Shown here piece by piece: positions 920-19,573 of a stretch of 64,000 nucleotides of DNA (positions are counted from its first letter, which is position 1; each line of letters begins with the position of its first letter). The stretch spans positions 186,001-250,000 of the forward strand of contig NZ_BOMZ01000015.1 of assembly GCF_016862455.1 (NCBI RefSeq), in the 5' to 3' direction. The DNA comes from Actinoplanes utahensis. GTDB taxonomy: Bacteria; Actinomycetota; Actinomycetes; Mycobacteriales; Micromonosporaceae. Position numbers and translations under genes: made by a program. The notes beneath the pieces were generated by a model. The model was given only the letters and a program-made list of their open reading frames with translations, did not search any database and was not told the DNA's origin.

Positions 920-2584
<1,665 letters not shown>

Positions 2585-2593
2585 TCACGCACC

Positions 2594-2626
2594 GGCGCCC
2601 TGCCCCGAGATTCGGAACAGGGCGCC
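2594..2626 (-). other. Intercistronic hairpin between groES and groL
   Basis: The arms GGCGCCCTG and CAGGGCGCC (9 bp, 15-nt loop) lie between the two chaperonin genes. There is no U-tract. It could mark mRNA processing or partial attenuation that sets the GroES:GroEL ratio; this is inference. Confidence 0.5.
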
Positions 2627-2644
2627 TGCACAGACGGTTAGGTC

Positions 2645-2959
2645 TTACTTCTCGATGACCGCGAGGACGTCGCGGGCGGAGAGCACCAGGTACTCCTCGC
2701 CGGCGTACTTGACCTCGGTGCCGCCGTACTTCGAGTAGAGAACAACGTCGCCGACCTTGACATCGAGCGGGACGCGGTTGCCCTTGTCGTCGATCCGGCC
2801 GGGGCCGACGGCCAGGACGGTGCCCTCCTGGGGCTTCTCCTTGGCGGTGTCGGGGATCACGATGCCGGAGGCGGTCGTGGTCTCAGCCTCGTTCGCCTGG
2901 ACCACGATGCGGTCCTCGAGCGGCTTGATCGCAACCTTGGTCGCGGTAGTCACGGGCAT
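2645..2959 (-). CDS. groES: 10-kDa co-chaperonin GroES
   Basis: This 104-residue protein is the GroEL lid. It begins with the family pattern [11 protein letters not shown] and contains the mobile-loop region [14 protein letters not shown] and the C-terminal [17 protein letters not shown]. The length is normal for the family. The start ATG follows a strong AGGAGGG site. It is the first gene of the groES-groL operon and is read from a heat-shock promoter bracketed by two CIRCE operators, so HrcA repression is expected. Confidence 0.97.
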
Positions 2960-3084
2960 ACCCTCCTGGGTATCAGGTTTCGCCGGCCGTGAAACAGGCC
3001 GGTCAATGCCTCATGCCACCGGGCGGGGCCGTCGTCGCGGGTGCCGGTCCGCCTGGTGCCTAACCGCACGGACGGGCCGCACGG

Positions 3085-3111
3085 CTGGCACCCTCATGGT
3101 GAGAGTGCTAA
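3085..3111 (-). promoter_or_regulatory. CIRCE operator, downstream copy (imperfect)
   Basis: The arms CTGGCACCC and GAGTGCTAA are separated by 9 bp, as in the CIRCE consensus TTAGCACTC-N9-GAGTGCTAA. The right arm is perfect and the left arm matches 6 of 9. It lies just downstream of the groES -10 box, around the start of transcription. Confidence 0.8.
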
Positions 3112-3116
3112 CGCCG

Positions 3117-3145
3117 AGACTATGCCGGAACTAGCACTCCGTCAA
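3117..3145 (-). promoter_or_regulatory. groES promoter
   Basis: On the minus strand TTGACG (3145-3140) and TAGTCT (3122-3117) are spaced by 17 bp. The -35 box lies in the spacer of the upstream CIRCE element and the second CIRCE lies just after the -10 box, so bound HrcA would block polymerase. Confidence 0.75.
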
Positions 3146-3157
3146 CCAGAGTGCCAA
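3131..3157 (-). promoter_or_regulatory. CIRCE operator, upstream copy
   Basis: The arms CTAGCACTC and GAGTGCCAA have a 9-bp spacer; each arm differs from the CIRCE consensus at one position. It overlaps the groES -35 box and ends 28 bp before the start of the divergent methyltransferase gene. Confidence 0.9.
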
Positions 3158-3184
3158 CCCGTCACGCCAGGGAGAATGCCTGCC

Positions 3185-4363
3185 ATGACCCCCGAGTTGT
3201 TGCGATTGTTGCGTACCCCTGAGGGGTTGAACGCCCTGGCCGCGGCGGTCGAGGTGACCGGCGGTGAGCCCCTCGCCGCAGCCTCGGCCATGCGGGCCCG
3301 GGGCTTCGGCGCGGACCTCGCCGCGGCCGCCTTGACCCAGGCTAGTTTGCGGGCGCGCGCCGCGATGAAGTTCGGCCCGGACGCTGCCCGGATGTTCTTC
3401 ACCAGGGCGGGCCTGGAGCAGGCCACCCGCGGTCCGGTCGCGGACCGGCGTGCCGCGCGGCTGGCCGCCTCCGGCGTCCGGACCCTCGCCGACCTGGGCT
3501 GCGGGCTGGGATCGGACGCGCTGGCCGCGGCCCGGCACGGCATCTCGGTGTACGCCGTGGACGCCGACCCGCTGACCGCCGCGCTGGCCGCCGCGAACGC
3601 CGAGGCCGCCGGGCTGGCCGACCTGATCACCGTGGCGTGCGCCGACGCCACCACGGTGCCGGTGGAGCGGTACGACGCGATCTTCGCCGACCCGGCCCGC
3701 CGTCAGGCCGGCCGCGGCCGGGTGTTCGACCCGAAGGCCTACTCGCCGCCGTGGGACTTCATCGCCGCCCTGCCCGGACGGGTGCCGCGCACGGTGCTGA
3801 AACTGGCGCCCGGCATCGACCACACGCTGCTGCCGCCGGGCGCCGAGGGTGAATGGGTCAGCGCCGGCGGCGACCTGGTGGAGGCCGCGTTCTGGTGCGG
3901 CCCGCTGGCCGGGGTGCCCCGCCGGGCCACCCTGATCGGCGCGGGCGTCACCGAGATCACCGGCTCGGGGGTGGAGCGGGCGCCGGTGGGCCCGGTCGGC
4001 GCGTGGATCTACGACCCCGACCCGGCGGTGGTCCGGTCACACCTGGTGGCCGAGTTCGCCGCGTCGGTCGGCGGCCGGCTGGGCGACCCGGACATCGCCT
4101 ACGTCTACACCGACGATCCGGTGGACACCCCGTTCGCCCGGCGGCTGGCGGTGACCGAGGTGCTCCCGTTCTCGCTGAAGAGACTGCGGGCGCTGCTGCG
4201 GGACCGCGGGGTCGGCGTGCTGGAGATCCGCAAGCGGGGCTCCGCGCTCGTGCCCGACCAGCTGCGCAAGGACCTGAGACTGGCCGGGCCGAACGCGGCG
4301 GGACTGGTGCTGACCCGGGTGGACGGCGCGCCGGTCGTCCTGCTGACGGAGATGGCGCGGTAG
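3185..4363 (+). CDS. Class I SAM-dependent methyltransferase, THUMP-like C-terminus
   Basis: This 392-residue cytoplasmic protein has the SAM-binding motif I LADLGCGLGSDALA, an acidic motif II (VYAVDADPLT) and the motif IV-like FADPARR. The C-terminal third has an alpha/beta layout like the THUMP-like domain found in this actinobacterial family. The substrate is unknown; RNA is plausible because THUMP-type domains accompany RNA-modifying enzymes. I chose the ATG at 3185, which has GGAG ten bases upstream; an ATG at 3176 is in frame but too close to that site. It is divergent from groES across the CIRCE operators. Confidence 0.8.
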   Translation: MTPELLRLLRTPEGLNALAAAVEVTGGEPLAAASAMRARGFGADLAAAALTQASLRARAAMKFGPDAARMFFTRAGLEQATRGPVADRRAARLAASGVRTLADLGCGLGSDALAAARHGISVYAVDADPLTAALAAANAEAAGLADLITVACADATTVPVERYDAIFADPARRQAGRGRVFDPKAYSPPWDFIAALPGRVPRTVLKLAPGIDHTLLPPGAEGEWVSAGGDLVEAAFWCGPLAGVPRRATLIGAGVTEITGSGVERAPVGPVGAWIYDPDPAVVRSHLVAEFAASVGGRLGDPDIAYVYTDDPVDTPFARRLAVTEVLPFSLKRLRALLRDRGVGVLEIRKRGSALVPDQLRKDLRLAGPNAAGLVLTRVDGAPVVLLTEMAR

Positions 4364-4369
4364 TACCGT
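4364..4369 (+). promoter_or_regulatory. -10 box for a leaderless ybaK transcript
   Basis: TACCGT is followed by 6 nt and then the ATG of the next gene, the spacing expected when transcription begins at the start codon. No Shine-Dalgarno sequence is present. Confidence 0.5.
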
Positions 4370-4375
4370 GCGCGC

Positions 4376-4858
4376 ATGGCCAAGAAAGCGGCGGGCACGC
4401 CGGCGACCGTCCTGCTGACCGCCGAGCGGGTGGCGCACACCCTGCATCCGTACGACGTGTCACCGGACGCCCCGAACTACGGTGCGCTCGTCGCGCAGGC
4501 TCTCGGTGTGGCGCCGGAGGCGGTGTTCAAGACCCTGGTGGCCGAGGTCGACGGCCACCTCGTGGTCGGGGTGGTGCCGGTGACCGGCGACCTCGACCTG
4601 AAGGCGCTCGCGGCGGCCGCCGGCGGCAAGCGGGCGGTCCTCGCCGACCGGGCGGCCGCCGAGCGCAGCAGCGGTTACGTGCGCGGCGGGATCAGCCCGC
4701 TGGGCCAGCGCAAGCGCCTGCCCACGGTGATCGACGACACCGCCGGGAGCCTCGATCTGATGTACGTCTCCGCGGGCCGCCGTGGCCTCCAGGTGTCGCT
4801 CGCCCCGGCCGATCTGATTCGGCTGACCGGAGCCACCACCGCCCCGCTGCGCACTTAG
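4376..4858 (+). CDS. ybaK: Cys-tRNA(Pro)/aminoacyl-tRNA deacylase, YbaK/EbsC family
   Basis: This 160-residue protein of the YbaK family hydrolyses mischarged Cys-tRNA(Pro), a quality-control step in translation. Recognisable parts are the N-terminal TPATVLLTAERVAHTLHPYD, VFKTLVAEVDG, the GDLDLKALAAAAGGK stretch containing the family's conserved lysine, and the GGISPLGQRKRLPTVID segment that shapes the active site. The length is typical. It begins 12 bp after the methyltransferase gene and is probably leaderless. Confidence 0.92.
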   Translation: MAKKAAGTPATVLLTAERVAHTLHPYDVSPDAPNYGALVAQALGVAPEAVFKTLVAEVDGHLVVGVVPVTGDLDLKALAAAAGGKRAVLADRAAAERSSGYVRGGISPLGQRKRLPTVIDDTAGSLDLMYVSAGRRGLQVSLAPADLIRLTGATTAPLRT

Positions 4859-4943
4859 GCTTGACCTCGGGGGGACCGTGTTTGCGGGATCGTTATCGCA
4901 GGCCACGGGATAGACCATCGTTGCCGCTTGTGTTCTGCGCCAC

Positions 4944-4963
4944 GGCGCGAATACGTTCGCGCC
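4944..4963 (+). promoter_or_regulatory. Candidate operator upstream of the sugar transporter
   Basis: The perfect palindrome GGCGCGAA-TACG-TTCGCGCC ends 18 bp before the xylF ribosome site. It is a reasonable site for the ROK repressor encoded at the end of this gene set, or for a general catabolite regulator. There is no binding evidence, and a short mRNA hairpin is the alternative. Confidence 0.4.
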
Positions 4964-4997
4964 CCGGATGTACCTCCCCCCGAAAGGAACTGTAGGG

Positions 4998-6083
4998 ATG
5001 CGTAAGGGAATCTGTGCCCTTGCCGCGGCCGGCCTTCTGGCCACCGGAGGTGTGGCCGCCTGCGGCCGGCAGAAAGACGGCCCCGGCAACGGCACGAAGG
5101 CGCAGGTCGGCGTGATCCTGCCGGACACCCGGAGTTCGGCCCGCTGGGAGTCCGCCGACCTCAAGTACCTCACCGAGGCGTTCGCCGCGGCCGGCGTCAC
5201 GGCCGAGATCAAGAACGCCCAGGGTGACAAGGCCCTGTTCCAGACCATCGCGGACGGGATGATCCAGAGCGGCGTCGAGGTCCTGATGATCGTCAACCTG
5301 GACTCCGGCACGGGCAAGAACGTGCTGGACAACGCCAGGAAGGCCGGGATCCGTACGATCGACTACGACCGGCTCACCCTCAACGGCGGCGCCGACTACT
5401 ACGTCACCTTCGACAACGTCGAGGTCGGCCGCCTCCAGGGTCAGGGTCTGGTGGACTGCCTCACCGCCGCCGGGGTCACGAAGCCGGTGGTGTCGTACCT
5501 CAACGGGTCGCCCACCGACAACAACGCCACCCAGTTCAAGACGGGTTACCACTCGGTCCTGCAGCCGAGGTTCGACTCCGGCGAGTACCTCCAGGGCCCG
5601 GACCAGGACGTTCCGGAGTGGGACAACGCCCGGGGTGGCACGATCTTCGAACAGCAGCTCACCCGCAACAACCGGATCGCCGGCGTGATCGCCGCCAACG
5701 ACGGCGTCGCCAACGCCGTCATCGAGGTGCTGAAGAAGAACAAGCTGAACGGGACGGTGCCGGTGACCGGCCAGGACGCCACCGTCCAAGGACTACAGAA
5801 CATCCTCGCCGGCGACCAGTGCATGACCGTCTACAAGGCGATCGACAAGGAGGCCGCCGCCGCCGCCGGCCTGGCCGCCGCCCTGGTCAAGGGGCAGACG
5901 CCGACGGCCACCGGCCTGATCACCGACCCGCAGACGAATCAGCCGGTCAAGTCGGTGCTGCTGCAACCGGTCGCCGTCACCAGGGAGAACATGAGGACTG
6001 TCGTCGACGACGGGTACGTCACCAAGGCGGAGCTCTGCACGGGCGCCTTCGAGAAGGCCTGCGCCGAAGCGGGCATCAGCTGA
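4998..6083 (+). CDS. xylF: Sugar ABC transporter substrate-binding lipoprotein, XylF-like
   Basis: This 361-residue exported lipoprotein has an N-terminal Lys/Arg-rich start, a hydrophobic core and the lipobox VAAC (Cys about 27). The mature part is a type-1 periplasmic binding fold; VGVILPDTRSSARWE, the IDYDRL motif and FDNVEVGRLQGQ resemble D-xylose-binding XylF. It would capture a pentose or related sugar outside the membrane for the permease encoded downstream. The ATG at 4998 follows AAAGGAA. It is the first gene of a SBP-ATPase-permease operon followed by a ROK regulator. The exact sugar is inferred only. Confidence 0.85.
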   Translation: MRKGICALAAAGLLATGGVAACGRQKDGPGNGTKAQVGVILPDTRSSARWESADLKYLTEAFAAAGVTAEIKNAQGDKALFQTIADGMIQSGVEVLMIVNLDSGTGKNVLDNARKAGIRTIDYDRLTLNGGADYYVTFDNVEVGRLQGQGLVDCLTAAGVTKPVVSYLNGSPTDNNATQFKTGYHSVLQPRFDSGEYLQGPDQDVPEWDNARGGTIFEQQLTRNNRIAGVIAANDGVANAVIEVLKKNKLNGTVPVTGQDATVQGLQNILAGDQCMTVYKAIDKEAAAAAGLAAALVKGQTPTATGLITDPQTNQPVKSVLLQPVAVTRENMRTVVDDGYVTKAELCTGAFEKACAEAGIS

Positions 6084-6112
6084 CCCGCGCACCGAACGAA
6101 GGAGAGACATCC

Positions 6113-6916
6113 GTGGCCGCGAAACCGCTCCTCGAGCTGCGCGGGATCGACAAGAGCTTCGGCCCCGTACGGGTCCTGCACGACGTCTCGCTGAGCGTCT
6201 ACCCGGGCGAGGTGACCGCTCTGGTCGGCGACAACGGAGCCGGCAAGTCGACGCTGGTGAAGTGCATCAGCGGCATCTACCCGATCGACGCGGGCACGGT
6301 GACCTTCGAGGGCCGGGAGGTCGCCGTGCACAGCCCGCGGGACGCCGCCGAGCTGGGCATCGAGGTCGTCTACCAGGACCTGGCGCTCTGCGACAACCTG
6401 GACATCGTCCAGAACATGTTCCTGGGCCGGGAGATCAGGCGCGGCATCGCCCTGGACGAGCCGGCCATGGAACGGCTGGCCGGGGAGACCCTGGCCAGCC
6501 TCTCGGTACGCAGCGTCAACTCGCTGCGCCAACTGGTGTCCAGCCTGTCCGGTGGCGAGCGGCAGACCGTGGCGATCGCCAAGGCGGTCCTGTGGAACAG
6601 CCGGATCGTCATCCTGGACGAGCCGACCGCCGCGCTCGGTGTGGCACAGACCACCCACGTGCTGGAACTGGTCCGCCGGCTGGCCGACAACGGGCTCAGC
6701 GTGGTGCTCATCTCGCACAACATGAACGACGTCTTCGCCGTCGCGGACCGGATCGCCGCGCTCTACCTGGGCCGGACGGCGGCCCAGGTGCGCGCGAGCG
6801 ACGTCACCCACGCCCAGGTCGTCGAGTTGATCACCATTGGGCGCAGTGGGAATCTTGGCCTTCCGCCCGAGGCGCCCAACGACTTCGCCGACCTTCTGCC
6901 CGGAGCTCCCCGATGA
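6113..6916 (+). CDS. xylG: Sugar ABC transporter ATPase, single-domain XylG type
   Basis: This 267-residue ATP-binding subunit powers sugar import. Motifs are Walker A GDNGAGKST, Q-loop VVYQDLALCDN, signature LSGGERQ, Walker B IVILDEPTAAL and H-loop VVLISHNM. It has one nucleotide-binding domain, as in the short XylG proteins of actinomycetes, whereas enterobacterial XylG has two. The GTG start at 6113 has GAAGGAGAG upstream. It ends in a 4-bp ATGA overlap with the permease gene, which indicates translational coupling. Confidence 0.88.
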   Translation: MAAKPLLELRGIDKSFGPVRVLHDVSLSVYPGEVTALVGDNGAGKSTLVKCISGIYPIDAGTVTFEGREVAVHSPRDAAELGIEVVYQDLALCDNLDIVQNMFLGREIRRGIALDEPAMERLAGETLASLSVRSVNSLRQLVSSLSGGERQTVAIAKAVLWNSRIVILDEPTAALGVAQTTHVLELVRRLADNGLSVVLISHNMNDVFAVADRIAALYLGRTAAQVRASDVTHAQVVELITIGRSGNLGLPPEAPNDFADLLPGAPR

Positions 6917-8175
6917 CCAGCATGACGACGTTCGAGACCCCCGGCGGGGTGACGGCCGCCAAGCCGACCGTCGCTGGGCATGTCCGGGACTATCTGGCCC
7001 GGATCCGCGGCGGGGATCTCGGCGCGCTGCCCGCGGTGCTGGGCCTCGTACTCCTCACGCTGATCTTCGGCAGTGCCGAGCCGGAGACGTTCTTCAGCGC
7101 CGGCAACTTCGCCAACCTGTTCAATCAGGCCGCCGGCGTCACCATGATCGCGATGGGCCTGGTCTTCGTTCTGCTGCTCGGCGAGATCGACCTGTCGGCC
7201 GGGTACGCCGCCGGCGTCTGCGGCGCGGTACTGGCGATCCTGCTCACCGATTTCGGTTACCCGCAGCCCGTCGCCCTGGTGGCCGCCCTGGCCGCCGGCG
7301 CCGCGATCGGGCTGGTGCTCGGCTTCCTGGTCGCCAAGATCGGCATCCCGTCGTTCGTGGTCACCCTGGCGGCTTTCCTCGCCTTCCAGGGTGTCCTGCT
7401 GAACCTGCTCGGCGAGAGCCAGATCGTCTCCATCCCGGACGGTTTCATCAAGTCGCTGAACAAGGACAGCCTTCCGGTCACCTGGAGCTGGATCCTGGCC
7501 GGCGTCGCGACGGCCGGCTACGCGGTCGCGCAGCTCCTGCGCTTCCGCGCACGGACCCGGTACGGGCTGGTCACCGAACCGATCGGGATCGTGCTGTTCC
7601 GGATCGCCGGTCTCGCCGCGCTGGTCCTGACCGCGACCGCGGTGCTCACCCAGGAGCGGGCCATCAATCCGGACGTCACCTCGCTCAAGGGCGTCCCGAT
7701 CGCGGTGCCGGTGATCGGCGGCTTCCTGGTGCTGTGGACCTTCGTGCTCGGCCGCACCTCGTACGGCCGGCACGTCTACGCGGTGGGTGGCAACCCGGAG
7801 GCCTCCCGCCGGGCCGGCATCCCCGTCGACCGGATCCGCATCTCGGTCTTCGTGGTCTGCTCGTTCATGACCGCGGCCGGCGGCATCATGCTGGTGAGCC
7901 GGGCCGGTTCGGTCGACCCCGGCACCGGCGGCAGCAGCACCCTGCTCAACGCCGTCGGCGCCGCGGTGATCGGCGGCATCAGCCTCTTCGGAGGCAAGGG
8001 AAAGGTGATCCACGCCGTGATCGGTGGCGCGGTGATCGCGGTCATCGACAATGGCATGTACCTGATGGACTTCTCGTCCGGCACCCGCTACATCTTCACG
8101 GGTGTGATCCTGCTTGTCGCGGCCGGCGTCGACGCGCTGGCCCGGCGCCGGGCCGCCGCGACCGGCAACAGGTAA
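6913..8175 (+). CDS. xylH: Sugar ABC transporter permease, XylH-like
   Basis: This 420-residue polytopic inner-membrane protein is of the BPD_transp_2 / ribose-xylose permease family. It has about ten hydrophobic segments starting near residue 35 (LPAVLGLVLLTLIFG), the family motif GEIDLSAGYAAG and the cytoplasmic coupling segment RTSYGRHVYAVGGNPEASRR that contacts the ATPase. The start codon overlaps the xylG stop (ATGA). With XylF and XylG it forms a complete importer. Confidence 0.9.
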   Translation: MTSMTTFETPGGVTAAKPTVAGHVRDYLARIRGGDLGALPAVLGLVLLTLIFGSAEPETFFSAGNFANLFNQAAGVTMIAMGLVFVLLLGEIDLSAGYAAGVCGAVLAILLTDFGYPQPVALVAALAAGAAIGLVLGFLVAKIGIPSFVVTLAAFLAFQGVLLNLLGESQIVSIPDGFIKSLNKDSLPVTWSWILAGVATAGYAVAQLLRFRARTRYGLVTEPIGIVLFRIAGLAALVLTATAVLTQERAINPDVTSLKGVPIAVPVIGGFLVLWTFVLGRTSYGRHVYAVGGNPEASRRAGIPVDRIRISVFVVCSFMTAAGGIMLVSRAGSVDPGTGGSSTLLNAVGAAVIGGISLFGGKGKVIHAVIGGAVIAVIDNGMYLMDFSSGTRYIFTGVILLVAAGVDALARRRAAATGNR

Positions 8176-17230: not shown

Positions 17231-18085
17231 GTGCGTACCGTCCTCGTGTGCGTCCGAACCCCGCTGGCGGCCCAGACCGTCGCGTCCACCGCGGCCCGGC
17301 TCGGCATGACCGGCGTCGTCCGGACCGCGGTCAGCGAGACCGAGGCCATGATCCGACTGGCGGAACGGCCGGCCGAAGTGGTCCTGGCCGACACCGCCGT
17401 GACCCGACCCGACAGCGTCGGGTTCACCCGGCGCGTACTGGCCCGCGCCCCACAGGCACAGGTGGTGCTCTTCGGAGCGGAAGACCCCCGGGTCGCCGCG
17501 GCGGCAGTCGCCGCCGGAGCCCGCGGCGTCATCCGCGGCGTCGAACACGACCTCGTCAGCGTCGTGGCGAAGGCGCTGCTCCTACTGCTGCTCCCGGTAC
17601 GCCCCCAAGGCATGCCGATCAACGGCGCCAACGCGCAACCGGCCACCGTGGCCGGCGGCGTACGCAACACCAACTCCCCGGCAACCCGCGGCCAATACCA
17701 CAACGGGCCCGGCGGACTCGGCGTCTCCAATGCGGCCGCCGTCCCCGCCATGATCGGGCCCAACGCCCCCATGGTCCCGGCACAGCGCGGCGACGCCCCG
17801 ATCGACCCCGCCACCGGCCGCCCCATGGTCGCCTGGCCCGGCAACGAAGCCGGCGTCGGCATGGGCGAGGCGGCCCCGGCCGGCCGGCGGCTCACCCTCA
17901 CCGAACGTGAACTACAGGTCCTCCGCGGAATGGCCGACGGCAAGAGCAACGCGGAGATCGGCAGAGAACTCTTCGTCTCCGAAGACACGGTCAAAACCCA
18001 TGCACGACGACTGTTCCGCAAACTCGGTGCACGAGACCGCGCCCATGCGGTCGCCGCAGGCTTCCGGGCCGGACTCGTCGCCTGA
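17231..18085 (+). CDS. bldM: BldM-like orphan response regulator (LuxR-type DNA-binding)
   Basis: This 284-residue protein has a receiver-like domain (1-121) and a LuxR/NarL helix-turn-helix (221-284) nearly word-for-word like BldM: LTERELQVLRGM, KSNAEIGRELFVSEDTVK, ARDRAHAVAAGFR. The receiver is degenerate. The acidic pair is replaced (VLVCVRTP), Asp54 remains in VLAD, and the switch lysine is Arg102. A Pro/Asn/Gly-rich linker of about 95 residues (125-218) separates the domains and makes it about 80 residues longer than Streptomyces BldM. BldM activates development genes, alone or with WhiI. The GTG start follows AAGGAGGA by 5 nt. The 231-bp gap to whiD must hold both promoters; it is T-rich near 17147-17167. 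Confidence 0.85.
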   Translation: MRTVLVCVRTPLAAQTVASTAARLGMTGVVRTAVSETEAMIRLAERPAEVVLADTAVTRPDSVGFTRRVLARAPQAQVVLFGAEDPRVAAAAVAAGARGVIRGVEHDLVSVVAKALLLLLLPVRPQGMPINGANAQPATVAGGVRNTNSPATRGQYHNGPGGLGVSNAAAVPAMIGPNAPMVPAQRGDAPIDPATGRPMVAWPGNEAGVGMGEAAPAGRRLTLTERELQVLRGMADGKSNAEIGRELFVSEDTVKTHARRLFRKLGARDRAHAVAAGFRAGLVA

Positions 18086-18168
18086 CACAGCTACGACGGG
18101 TGGGGCGGTGCCGGAAGCCGCCCCACCCACGTGACCACGGGCCGGTCACGGCGGCCCGCCCACCCACG

Positions 18169-18342
18169 GGACGAGGTTGTTCGCTCGGTCGCCCGGGGGA
18201 CGGGGTTGTCGGTTTGGTCGCCCGCGGGGTGAGGTTGTTGGCTTTCTCGCCCGGGGGACGAGGTCGTCGGTTTGGTCGCCCGCGGGGTGAGGTTGTTGAC
18301 TCTCTCGCCCGGGGGACCAGGTATCCGGCTTTCTCGCCCCTC
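18169..18342. repeat. Six 29-bp tandem repeats, left array
   Basis: The units start at 18169, 18198, 18227, 18256, 18285 and 18314. Consensus features are GGRBGAGGTTGT, a variable middle and TCGCCCGSG. Units 2 and 4 (GGTTTGGTCG) alternate with units 3 and 5 (CTTTCTCG or CTCTCTCG), giving a 58-bp higher-order period. Its reverse complement resembles the right array at 18871-19106. Confidence 0.85.
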
Positions 18343-18379
18343 TGAGCTTGCTGGCTTCGCTTCGCTCCGCGGCAAAATG
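18313..18379. repeat. 67-bp inverted repeat, left arm
   Basis: It runs from GGGACCAGGTATCC to CGGCAAAATG and matches the reverse complement of 18831-18897 at 66 of 67 positions; the only difference is GCTCCGCGG versus GCTTCGCGG. Confidence 0.92.
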
Positions 18380-18475
18380 CCTTGTAACCGGTGTCGAGGC
18401 GTGCGATTTTCCGCCACCCAGCAAACCCCACTGGGCGTCGGAAAATCACTCGCCTCGACACCGGCGGCATTTTGC
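18372..18475. repeat. Long palindrome A
   Basis: The nested pairs are GCAAAATGCC/GGCATTTTGC (10 bp), CCGGTGTCGAGGCG/CGCCTCGACACCGG (14 bp), GATTTTCCG/CGGAAAATC (9 bp) and CCCAG/CTGGG around a loop of about 9 nt. It is homologous to palindrome B but in the opposite orientation. Confidence 0.9.
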
Positions 18476-18477
18476 GT

Positions 18478-18648
18478 GACCGTTCCGTGGCCACGCGCAC
18501 ACTGGAAAACTACGGGGTGAGGACCGTTGCGTGGCCACGTGTACCAGAGACCACGGGGCGGGGACCGTTGCGTGGGTACGTGTGCGGGGGCACTGCCGGG
18601 CTTCACCGTTGCGTGGCCACGGGAGCGGGCAGCAGTGTTGTGGCCACG
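18478..18648. repeat. Direct repeats with a roughly 42-bp period
   Basis: The motif GACCGTTGCGTGGCCACG recurs at 18478, 18522, 18563 and 18604 with small changes, plus a partial copy at 18636-18648. The spacings of 44, 41 and 41 bp are uneven and the intervening sequence is less conserved. It sits in the centre of the inverted structure. Confidence 0.75.
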
Positions 18649-18732
18649 GAGGTCTGCTGAAGCGCGCACGGTTCGGTTGCAGCCGTTATCCAACCCCGTA
18701 GTTGCCGCAAGGTCGTATTCACAGAACTGCCC

Positions 18733-18838
18733 GCAAAATGACCGTTGGTGTCGAGACAGTCGATTTTTCGACGCCCAGTGGTTTTTGCTGGGTGGCGGAA
18801 AATCGACTGTCTCGACACCAACTTAAAGGTCATTTTGC
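18733..18838. repeat. Long palindrome B
   Basis: The nested pairs are GCAAAATGACC/GGTCATTTTGC (11 bp) and a perfect 22-bp stem (18745-18766 with 18800-18821, containing GGTGTCGAGACAGTC / GACTGTCTCGACACC), then CCCAG/CTGGG around a loop. Compared with A, the stem sequence differs but pairing is kept. Confidence 0.92.
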
Positions 18839-18897
18839 CGCGAAGCGAAGCGAAGCCAGCAAGCTCAGAGGGGCGAGAAAGCCGGATACCTGGTCCC
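18831..18897. repeat. 67-bp inverted repeat, right arm
   Basis: It runs from CATTTTGCCGCG to CTGGTCCC and is the reverse complement of 18313-18379 with one mismatch. With the left arm it encloses a 451-bp centre. Confidence 0.92.
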
Positions 18898-19106
18898 ATG
18901 GGTGACAGAGCCAGCGCGCCTGTTCCCGTGGGTGGGAGGGTCAGCGCGCCTGTTCCCGTGGGTGGGAGGGTCAGCACGCCTGTTCCCGTGGGTGACTGAG
19001 CCGGCTACCTGGTCCCGTAGGCGGGAAGGTCGGCACGCCTGTTCCGTGGGTGACCGAGCCGGCTACCTCTTCCCCGTAGAGAAGCGACCCAACTACCTCA
19101 TCCCAT
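18871..19106. repeat. Eight 29-30 bp tandem repeats, right array
   Basis: The units start at 18871, 18900, 18930, 18960, 18990, 19019, 19048 and 19078. A typical unit begins GGGTGACTGAGCCGGCTACC and ends TGGTCCCGT; a second subtype has GGGTGGGAGGGTCAGCRCGC. A degenerate ninth unit follows. It is the same family as the left array, inverted. Confidence 0.85.
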
Positions 19107-19168: not shown

Positions 19169-19573
19169 TCAGCTTTCGTCGTCGTTGCCTTCGGTGAGGG
19201 TGTCGTGGACGCCGTCGGCGTAGCCGCGGGCGTATTCCCACGTGACGTAGTGGTCGGGGTCGGGGTCGTAGGCGGGTTCGTGGACGCGGGGCCGGCCGCT
19301 GCTCAGCAGGTGGCGCAGGTTGCCGCGGAGCAGGTCCCAGTCGAAGTAGTGCGGTTCGTGGCAGTCCTCGCACTCGATCACCAGCCCGCGGATGCCCGTC
19401 GGACTGAGCAGTGCCTGGTAGATCTCCAGGTCGGAGAGGTCTTCCAGGACGTCCTGCCGCTCGTCCTCGGTCAGCGGTTCGGACTCGGCGTCCTCGTTGA
19501 GGTCGTCGAGACCGGCGGCCGGGTCGGTCGGGTCGCCGTTGAACGGGTCGATCGGCTCATCTTGCACCCCCAT
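19169..19573 (-). CDS. DUF5319 family protein
   Basis: This 134-residue acidic protein has no membrane segment. Visible parts are a disordered acidic N-terminus (DEPIDPFNGDPTDPAAGLDD), a helical middle (LTEDERQDVLEDLSDLEIYQ) and a conserved core ECEDCHEPHYFDWDLLRGNL with a CxxC-type pair. The family, in Actinobacteria only as far as I know, has no assigned biochemical function. It lies divergent from guaB, as Rv3412 does beside mycobacterial guaB2, which supports orthology. The start has GAGGTGAG upstream. Confidence 0.85.
   Translation of the reverse strand: MGVQDEPIDPFNGDPTDPAAGLDDLNEDAESEPLTEDERQDVLEDLSDLEIYQALLSPTGIRGLVIECEDCHEPHYFDWDLLRGNLRHLLSSGRPRVHEPAYDPDPDHYVTWEYARGYADGVHDTLTEGNDDES

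Follow-up and report, generated by a model that had tools for sequence, protein, structure and literature searches.

A dispersed palindromic element at gene 3' ends in Actinoplanes and the two-unit repeat island it forms between convergent luxR-type and DUF5319 genes

Results

Anatomy of the repeat island

The window analysed here is a 64,000-nucleotide stretch of the Actinoplanes utahensis genome (contig NZ_BOMZ01000015.1, positions 186,001 to 250,000). Within it, two convergent genes, encoding a luxR/GerE-type regulator and a DUF5319 protein, are separated by a gap of 1,083 bp, and a repeat island lies inside this gap. An earlier note on the same DNA had described a gene-free block of 0.94 kb at this place, and indeed no gene was called in the block. 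The features of the locus, in window coordinates, are as follows.

17231..18085, plus strand: luxR/GerE-type regulator gene (PF00196, E 6e-20), with its 3' end bordering the island
18098..18128: intact native hairpin GGGTGGGGCGG..CCGCCCCACCC, terminator-like, directly after luxR (read in the sequence)
18168..18322: left minisatellite, 29-nt unit (58-nt dimer; TRF)
18313..18379, plus strand: left arm of a 67-nt inverted repeat, one mismatch
18342..18372, plus strand: head of element 1, CTGAGCTTGCTGGCTTCGCTTCGCTCCGCGG (alignment of copies and covariance-model match)
18372..18475, plus strand: hairpin of element 1, with the one-sided bulge TTGTAA at 18382-18387
18476..18640, plus strand: tail of element 1 and direct repeats of about 41 nt (a similar tail follows single copies elsewhere in the host genome)
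About 18733..18838, minus strand: hairpin of element 2 (covariance model)
18831..18897, minus strand: right arm of the 67-nt inverted repeat
18838..18868, minus strand: head of element 2, CTGAGCTTGCTGGCTTCGCTTCGCTTCGCGG in minus-strand reading (covariance model)
18889..19060: right minisatellite, 30-nt unit (59-60-nt dimer to 19068; TRF), with degenerate units to about 19110
19169..19573, minus strand: DUF5319 gene (PF17252, E 3e-50), the right border of the gap, convergent with luxR

The island is made of two units of a dispersed element, one per strand and placed tail to tail with the tails inward; a unit consists of a 31-nt head, a hairpin of about 104 nt with a one-sided bulge, and a tail, and the element encodes no protein. 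The earlier reading of the arms as two inverted copies of one composite element was borne out by a single covariance model that matched both units on opposite strands (element 1 at contig C15:204341-204480, or window 18341-18480), and the two palindromes put at about 105 nt in that reading are the two hairpins. Likewise, the 67-bp inverted repeat with one mismatch was recovered at exactly 67 nt, whereas 20 dinucleotide shuffles of the block yielded none longer than 16 nt; it forms the core of a 91-nt, 90% inverted repeat (18297-18387 / 18823-18913).

Tandem arrays flank the two units. On the left, where six repeats of 29 bp had been counted, TRF reported a period of 29 with 5.3 copies, and the 58-nt dimer fitted better (90% matches); on the right, where eight repeats of 29-30 bp had been counted, the period was 30 with 5.8 copies. 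Both arrays are therefore real, and the counts of six and eight depend on degenerate units. The central direct repeats, described earlier with a period of roughly 42 bp, start 44, 41 and 41 nt apart and are 74-87% identical to the first. When compared with tail sequence typed from single copies in the host, central repeats 1 and 2 scored above all 2000 shuffles and the other two gave p values of 0.4 and 0.03; the first of the four is the tail itself, the second is clearly similar and the other two are weak. In shuffle tests against the head, two of the six left-array units were similar (p 0.0005 and 0.005; the other four 0.06-0.61) and none of six right-array units reached p < 0.05, so that a derivation of the 29-30-nt arrays from the head is only suggestive.

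Copies in the host genome and across the family

The block used as a query gave 22 matches on several contigs of the host genome. Raw counts from the covariance model (16 in the host and 49 in genome G021) were too high, since each palindrome can be hit on both strands; the distinct copies numbered nine in the host at E < 1e-10 (one truncated), with two weak matches besides, and G021 and G019 had 33 and 24 places, respectively, at E up to 1e-10. A second stretch of the same order (80% identity across 579 bp) extends up to the end of host contig C20, and its presence in the same genome makes a one-off assembly error an unlikely origin of the island. The arrays are secondary, since single host copies on contigs C3, C16 and C111 contain the unit without them; the arrays in the window may represent later amplification around two elements, in which the central repeats would be duplicated tails, clearly so for two of the four.

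The unit was defined by an alignment of 33 copies, six from the host and 27 from relatives. Its consensus comprises the head CTGAGCTnGCTGGCTCCGCTTCGCTCCGCGG, an outer stem of the GCAAAACGCC type, a one-sided bulge of the TTGTAA type, an inner stem and a loop of the GCAAACCCCGC type. A tail of about 40 nt follows the unit in the host and in some relatives (G007, G072, G082), and the head occurs as a tandem duplicate of 36-38 nt in G021 and G007.

The earlier note had proposed a search of the host and its relatives, and this search returned many dispersed copies, with model matches in 60 of 67 Actinoplanes genomes in addition to the host copies given above. As an exact 20-mer, the head was found in 106 stretches of the named genome collection, and among the 80 listed, 72 belonged to Actinoplanes or Paractinoplanes and eight were scattered strays. 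At L070 (Idiomarina aquatica NZ_PIPS01000001.1), the region from about 2400 to 7800 contains tandem blocks in which the head 20-mer GGCTCCGCTTCGCTCCGCGG alternates with GGCCTTCGGCCGGGGTA-type sequence, and these blocks look like an independent repeat family.

When 200 genomes were sampled from the family, the model matched 31 of the 36 that belong to the genus and at least one of 164 from other genera, the latter figure being a lower bound as the stricter filters applied there missed G088. With laxer filters, G176 and its congener G088, which belong to another genus of the family, gave five matches, the best at E 1e-11 in G088, so that the element has a wider range than the stricter scan indicated. 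On the proper strand, GAGCT (CTGAGCT in three) stands ahead of a similar head and hairpin in each of the five copies (L401, L402 and L404 in G176; L400 and L403 in G088), and a simple gene caller placed every one of them between convergent genes. A further palindrome, termed B-type, occupies the luxR gap of five species and has the same order of parts with other stems (four of the five were folded). The B-type copies and the missed G088 indicate that the model under-counts a wider superfamily. The loop motif of L401 and L402 (CAAAGAG type) reads in the reverse direction compared with that of the Actinoplanes B-type elements.

Placement at gene ends and in pyrB

Placement was assessed on 106 copies (50 from named genomes, 24 from G019 and 32 loci of G021), with genes called by a simple codon-usage script that misses some short genes. 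Six A. flavus copies (A. flavus is apparently the same as G019), the contig-edge copy L061:5-135 and matches under about 70 bits were dropped, and degraded copies are under-represented because the named copies were found via an intact 20-nt head. Both neighbours were called for 99 copies, of which 70 lay between convergent genes, 18 plus 9 between tandem genes and 2 between divergent genes. Among background gene pairs away from the element, 33 of 245 were convergent and 58 of 245 divergent (74 and 72 of 336, respectively, with all pairs counted), and the convergent share was 59 of 86 copies after G019 loci shared with G021 were dropped. The gene on the head side pointed into the element in 92 of 103 cases; 34 of these 92 gene ends had their stop codon within the head (28 of 77 without the G021-shared G019 loci). 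These data show that the element lies mainly in the gaps of convergent genes and that its head often supplies the stop codon. It should be noted that this bias may reflect no more than a tolerance of insertions in convergent gaps, and that pneumococcal repeats (PMC3049150) show it too.

Copies were often flush with, or overlapping, the last codons of the neighbouring genes, and in 15 of the 70 convergent cases the gap was little larger than the element. In such tight gaps the hairpin of the element is the only large one left, which suggests that it ends transcription from both sides. If the hairpin does act as a bidirectional terminator, insertion at a gene 3' end would be tolerated, or could even replace the native terminator.

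A single copy of the 106 was located inside a gene, pyrB. In G004 (A. durhamensis, L090:2054-3103) and G013 (L157), pyrB contains 42 extra residues at one position with the frame open, and that of G008 (L376) contains a longer related insert with an internal repeat; the 13-residue insert in G047 (L382) may be a remnant. In all four species the position in pyrB is the same. The pyrB probe matched 66 of 67 genomes, and in the other 27 of the 31 species read the gene has no insert.

The luxR/DUF5319 gap across species

The gap between luxR and DUF5319 was resolved in 65 of 67 species (all but G049 and G062), and the luxR gene ends in AGLVA* in 65 of the 65. Classed by eye from heads and sequence, 15 gaps hold this element, five hold the B-type, 18 are short and empty (15-40 bp) and 27 contain other sequence, with G055 among the 27 possibly holding a remnant. 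The element stands in one orientation in ten of the 15 filled gaps, in the other orientation in four, and in both in the host. A quick tree was built from the flanking genes, with strong support for 23 of its 62 inner branches; on this tree the presence of the element changed state at least ten times, and the differing sister pairs G013/G020, G040/G060, G045/G067 and G019/G021 (the last differing in orientation) are among the strongly supported branches.

A small, strong native hairpin is located in the gap of 11 of the 18 species with a short empty gap, and in G069 the element sits between two halves that resemble such a hairpin. The suggestion in the earlier note of a terminator element is thus plausible, though unproven: the native hairpins in these empty gaps, the copies at convergent gene ends and the frequent supply of a stop codon all agree with it.

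Another large inverted-repeat family, with GATCTTC-containing arms (CTCCCGCGGGGACCCTTNCGGG), was seen in the same gap in G010, G059, G066, G016, G023 and G051 (L216, L259, L197, L275, L220 and L205), and the gap seems to attract several repeats. The longest gaps, of 1,486 bp in G001 and 1,241 bp in G061 (L283 and L261), begin alike and may hold an extra gene.

Subfamilies and turnover between sister species

The median identity of copies within a genome was 0.91 in G019, 0.88 in G021, 0.89 in the host, and 0.82 in KI2 and subtropicus, compared to 0.68-0.75 against other species. Six of the eight genomes with at least three copies had copies more alike among themselves (medians 0.82-0.91) than between species (0.68-0.80); in the other two the copies were no or scarcely more alike (NBRC 103695, 0.63 within versus 0.63 between; tereljensis, 0.71 versus 0.68). 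For 46 of 90 copies, the nearest neighbour was a copy in the same genome.

In the sister species G019 and G021, 14 of the 32 G021 loci and 15 of the 24 G019 loci were common to both, with flanks 91-99% identical (one site was matched via one flank, and two contig-end G019 loci correspond to one G021 site). Two of the 14 shared sites were in opposite orientation. The copies of one reversed pair, L232/L321, are 0.94 identical, which fits an inversion in place, whereas those of the other, L328/L319 in the luxR gap, are 0.75 identical, which fits a separate insertion. Six unshared G021 sites were checked in G019; four had a shorter gap without the element there and two (L238, L330) had a longer gap. 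At L233, the adjoining gene ends six codons later in G019 and G072, whereas G021 lacks these six codons and has its stop in the head of the element. Across 124 loci under 30 species labels, 18 gaps held the element under more than one label, five of them with both orientations; nine of the 18 lie beyond the G019/G021 pair, and a few genomes carry both a G handle and a species name.

These data show that the unit is dispersed, that it forms lineage-specific subfamilies in most multi-copy genomes, and that it is present or absent at given sites between sisters, which supports the earlier suggestion of a mobile non-coding repeat. The copies could instead descend from shared ancestry, as an immobile functional element such as a bidirectional terminator or a 3'-UTR structure; the element keeps its orientation at 12 of the 14 sites common to G019 and G021, same-site copies can be 0.90-0.96 identical, and the flush fit between gene ends described above is in keeping with such an element. 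However, vertical inheritance is unlikely in view of the empty sites in sisters, the opposite orientations, the subfamilies within genomes and the in-frame copies inside pyrB.

Another dispersed repeat, of the CACCGATCT..GCCCGGCGGGCGCGGCAC type, adjoins the element at L226, L228, L234 and L236 in G021 and at L352 in G019, and at L228 the element seems to replace part of it.

Covariation of the hairpin

Both sides changed in 24 of the 35 base pairs of the hairpin, a number reached in none of 500 shuffles, and double-sided changes were found in 160 cells versus 45 in shuffles. Furthermore, 95.8% of cells were paired, compared to 34-55% when the partners were slid; since the tested structure had been drawn from the alignment itself, the covariation result is biased in its favour. 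G·U or U·G pairs occupied 25 cells, and one single pair accounted for 12 of these. As a rule, RNA structures change via G·U pairs, and covariation with few such pairs is therefore read as maintenance at the DNA level; we infer that the hairpin is kept as DNA and not as RNA, and the process involved may be recognition as single-stranded DNA or copying from arm to arm.

Arm-to-arm copying of this kind (quasipalindrome correction) is, by itself, expected to produce double-sided changes with few G·U pairs, and it is also expected to erase a one-sided bulge. The whole pattern could accordingly be ascribed to template switching and slippage at gene ends, with spread by local copying or gene conversion and no transposition, and the tandem duplicates of head and tail, as well as the L233 site, which lost target sequence instead of duplicating it, fit such a course of events. 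However, the one-sided 6-nt bulge and the asymmetric head are kept across species in the alignment where correction should have erased them, and the same unit stands at many unlinked loci of one genome. Template switching without transposition is thus also an improbable account.

Insertion signature and candidate mover

No target-site duplication of at least four identical flanking nt was found in 76 copies, identical flanks of 2-3 nt occurred at chance level (16 versus 14.2 and 3 versus 3.3), and 38 copies showed no clear target motif; the element therefore bears no classical transposition signature. The alignment columns after the stem showed no T run in 38 copies. Insertion into terminator loops was rejected as a general rule, as the flanks of the 76 copies paired no better than mismatched flanks (median energies -16.7 versus -16.5, with two of 76 below the 2% mark; the means were distorted by one copy with masked letters and an invalid energy). 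Insertion resembling this mode was seen only at single sites outside the 76-copy set, namely G069 and L013.

Mobility would be supplied in trans. The only family searched as a mover was the Y1 transposase (Y1_Tnp, PF01797), which had no match in the draft assembly of the host and is present in 21 of 67 genomes of the genus. Mobilisation by such a transposase (RAYT) would make the element a REP/BIME, and the two resemble each other in several respects. According to PMC3733652, REPs (REP/BIME/REPIN, GTAG- or CGTC-tagged) are palindromes with a preference for gene 3' ends, often occur as inverted pairs, and lie in convergent and tandem gaps; the island in the window is an inverted pair, the Actinoplanes element has many extragenic copies downstream of genes, and some copy-rich genomes (G021, G019, G010, G062) have Y1 genes. 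However, 41 of the 60 element-bearing genomes lack PF01797, including the copy-rich G013, G020, G059, G005 and G064, and PF01797 and copy number (counted on both strands) gave a rank correlation of 0.18 (p 0.14). By eye, no GTAG or CGTC tag was found at the stem base, where CGCGG or a variant comes before the stem and GGG or gene sequence after it, and the units are several times longer than REPs (about 140-180 nt, not 20-40) and have a one-sided bulge and a separate head and tail. The REP/RAYT candidate was rejected as unlikely on the PF01797 counts, and with the remaining differences it appears quite improbable.

A conserved structured RNA (sRNA or 3'-UTR element), which the earlier note had entertained, is suggested by the covariation and by the strong fold of the hairpin 1 region (z = -5.9, DNA parameters) but is very improbable given the few G·U pairs, the occurrence of both orientations at one site, and an Rfam search that gave chance-level matches only, none near the gathering score.

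Discussion

The best explanation of the island is a non-autonomous mobile palindrome with insertion at gene 3' ends, where it can serve as stop and bidirectional terminator; we consider this explanation probable. A bolder form of it, which we put forward tentatively and hold to be possible rather than likely, is that of a gene-ending cassette: a self-spreading palindrome, with stop codons in its head and a hairpin that terminates transcription from both sides, would replace natural gene endings, would be moved as folded single-stranded DNA by non-Y1 machinery, and would have diversified within Actinoplanes and in one or more further genera of the family.

Among known systems, the pneumococcal SPRITE, BOX and RUP repeats, as described in PMC3049150, are short stem-loop repeats that are clustered and overrepresented between convergent genes; SPRITEs lie near gene 3' ends, have been proposed to be co-opted terminators and have no matching IS ends, and BOX has one module in variable numbers. 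The Actinoplanes element shares their enrichment in convergent gaps; however, its sequence and architecture are different, with no U-rich tract, a longer hairpin and an asymmetric head with stop codons, and it is spread over a genus with covarying stems. Rickettsia palindromic elements, as described in PMC10969869, are palindromes of about 150 bp, some of which stand in frame in metabolic genes, as the element does here in pyrB; in-frame copies are the exception in Actinoplanes, where gene ends are the rule. Like MITEs (compare PMC10969869), the element is short, non-coding, dispersed and hairpin-forming and has no enzyme of its own, but it differs from them in the lack of target-site duplication and in an asymmetric head outside the inverted repeat, and no parent IS was noticed.

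In location and anatomy, the element is closest to pneumococcal SPRITE/BOX and to REPs, and the in-frame copies recall Rickettsia palindromic elements. It would work, by this analogy, like a terminator-type interspersed repeat, but looks like a family of its own. Among the matches listed for literature on palindromic, interspersed and intergenic repeats of Actinoplanes and Micromonosporaceae, the element was absent by title and abstract, which is weak evidence as the search covered open-licence PMC text.

If the mobile-palindrome explanation is true, a mobile hairpin is taking the place of natural gene endings throughout a genus of soil bacteria, the sites in sister species are ready before-and-after pairs for the takeover of transcription termination by a repeat, and the family offers a route to a new kind of DNA-hairpin mobilisation. 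The element may also explain breaks in draft assemblies. Six host contigs (C20, C52, C53, C62, C111 and C112) have an end that coincides with element or array sequence or is no more than about 30 bases away from it; the host may therefore hold more islands, with its draft assembly probably broken at them.
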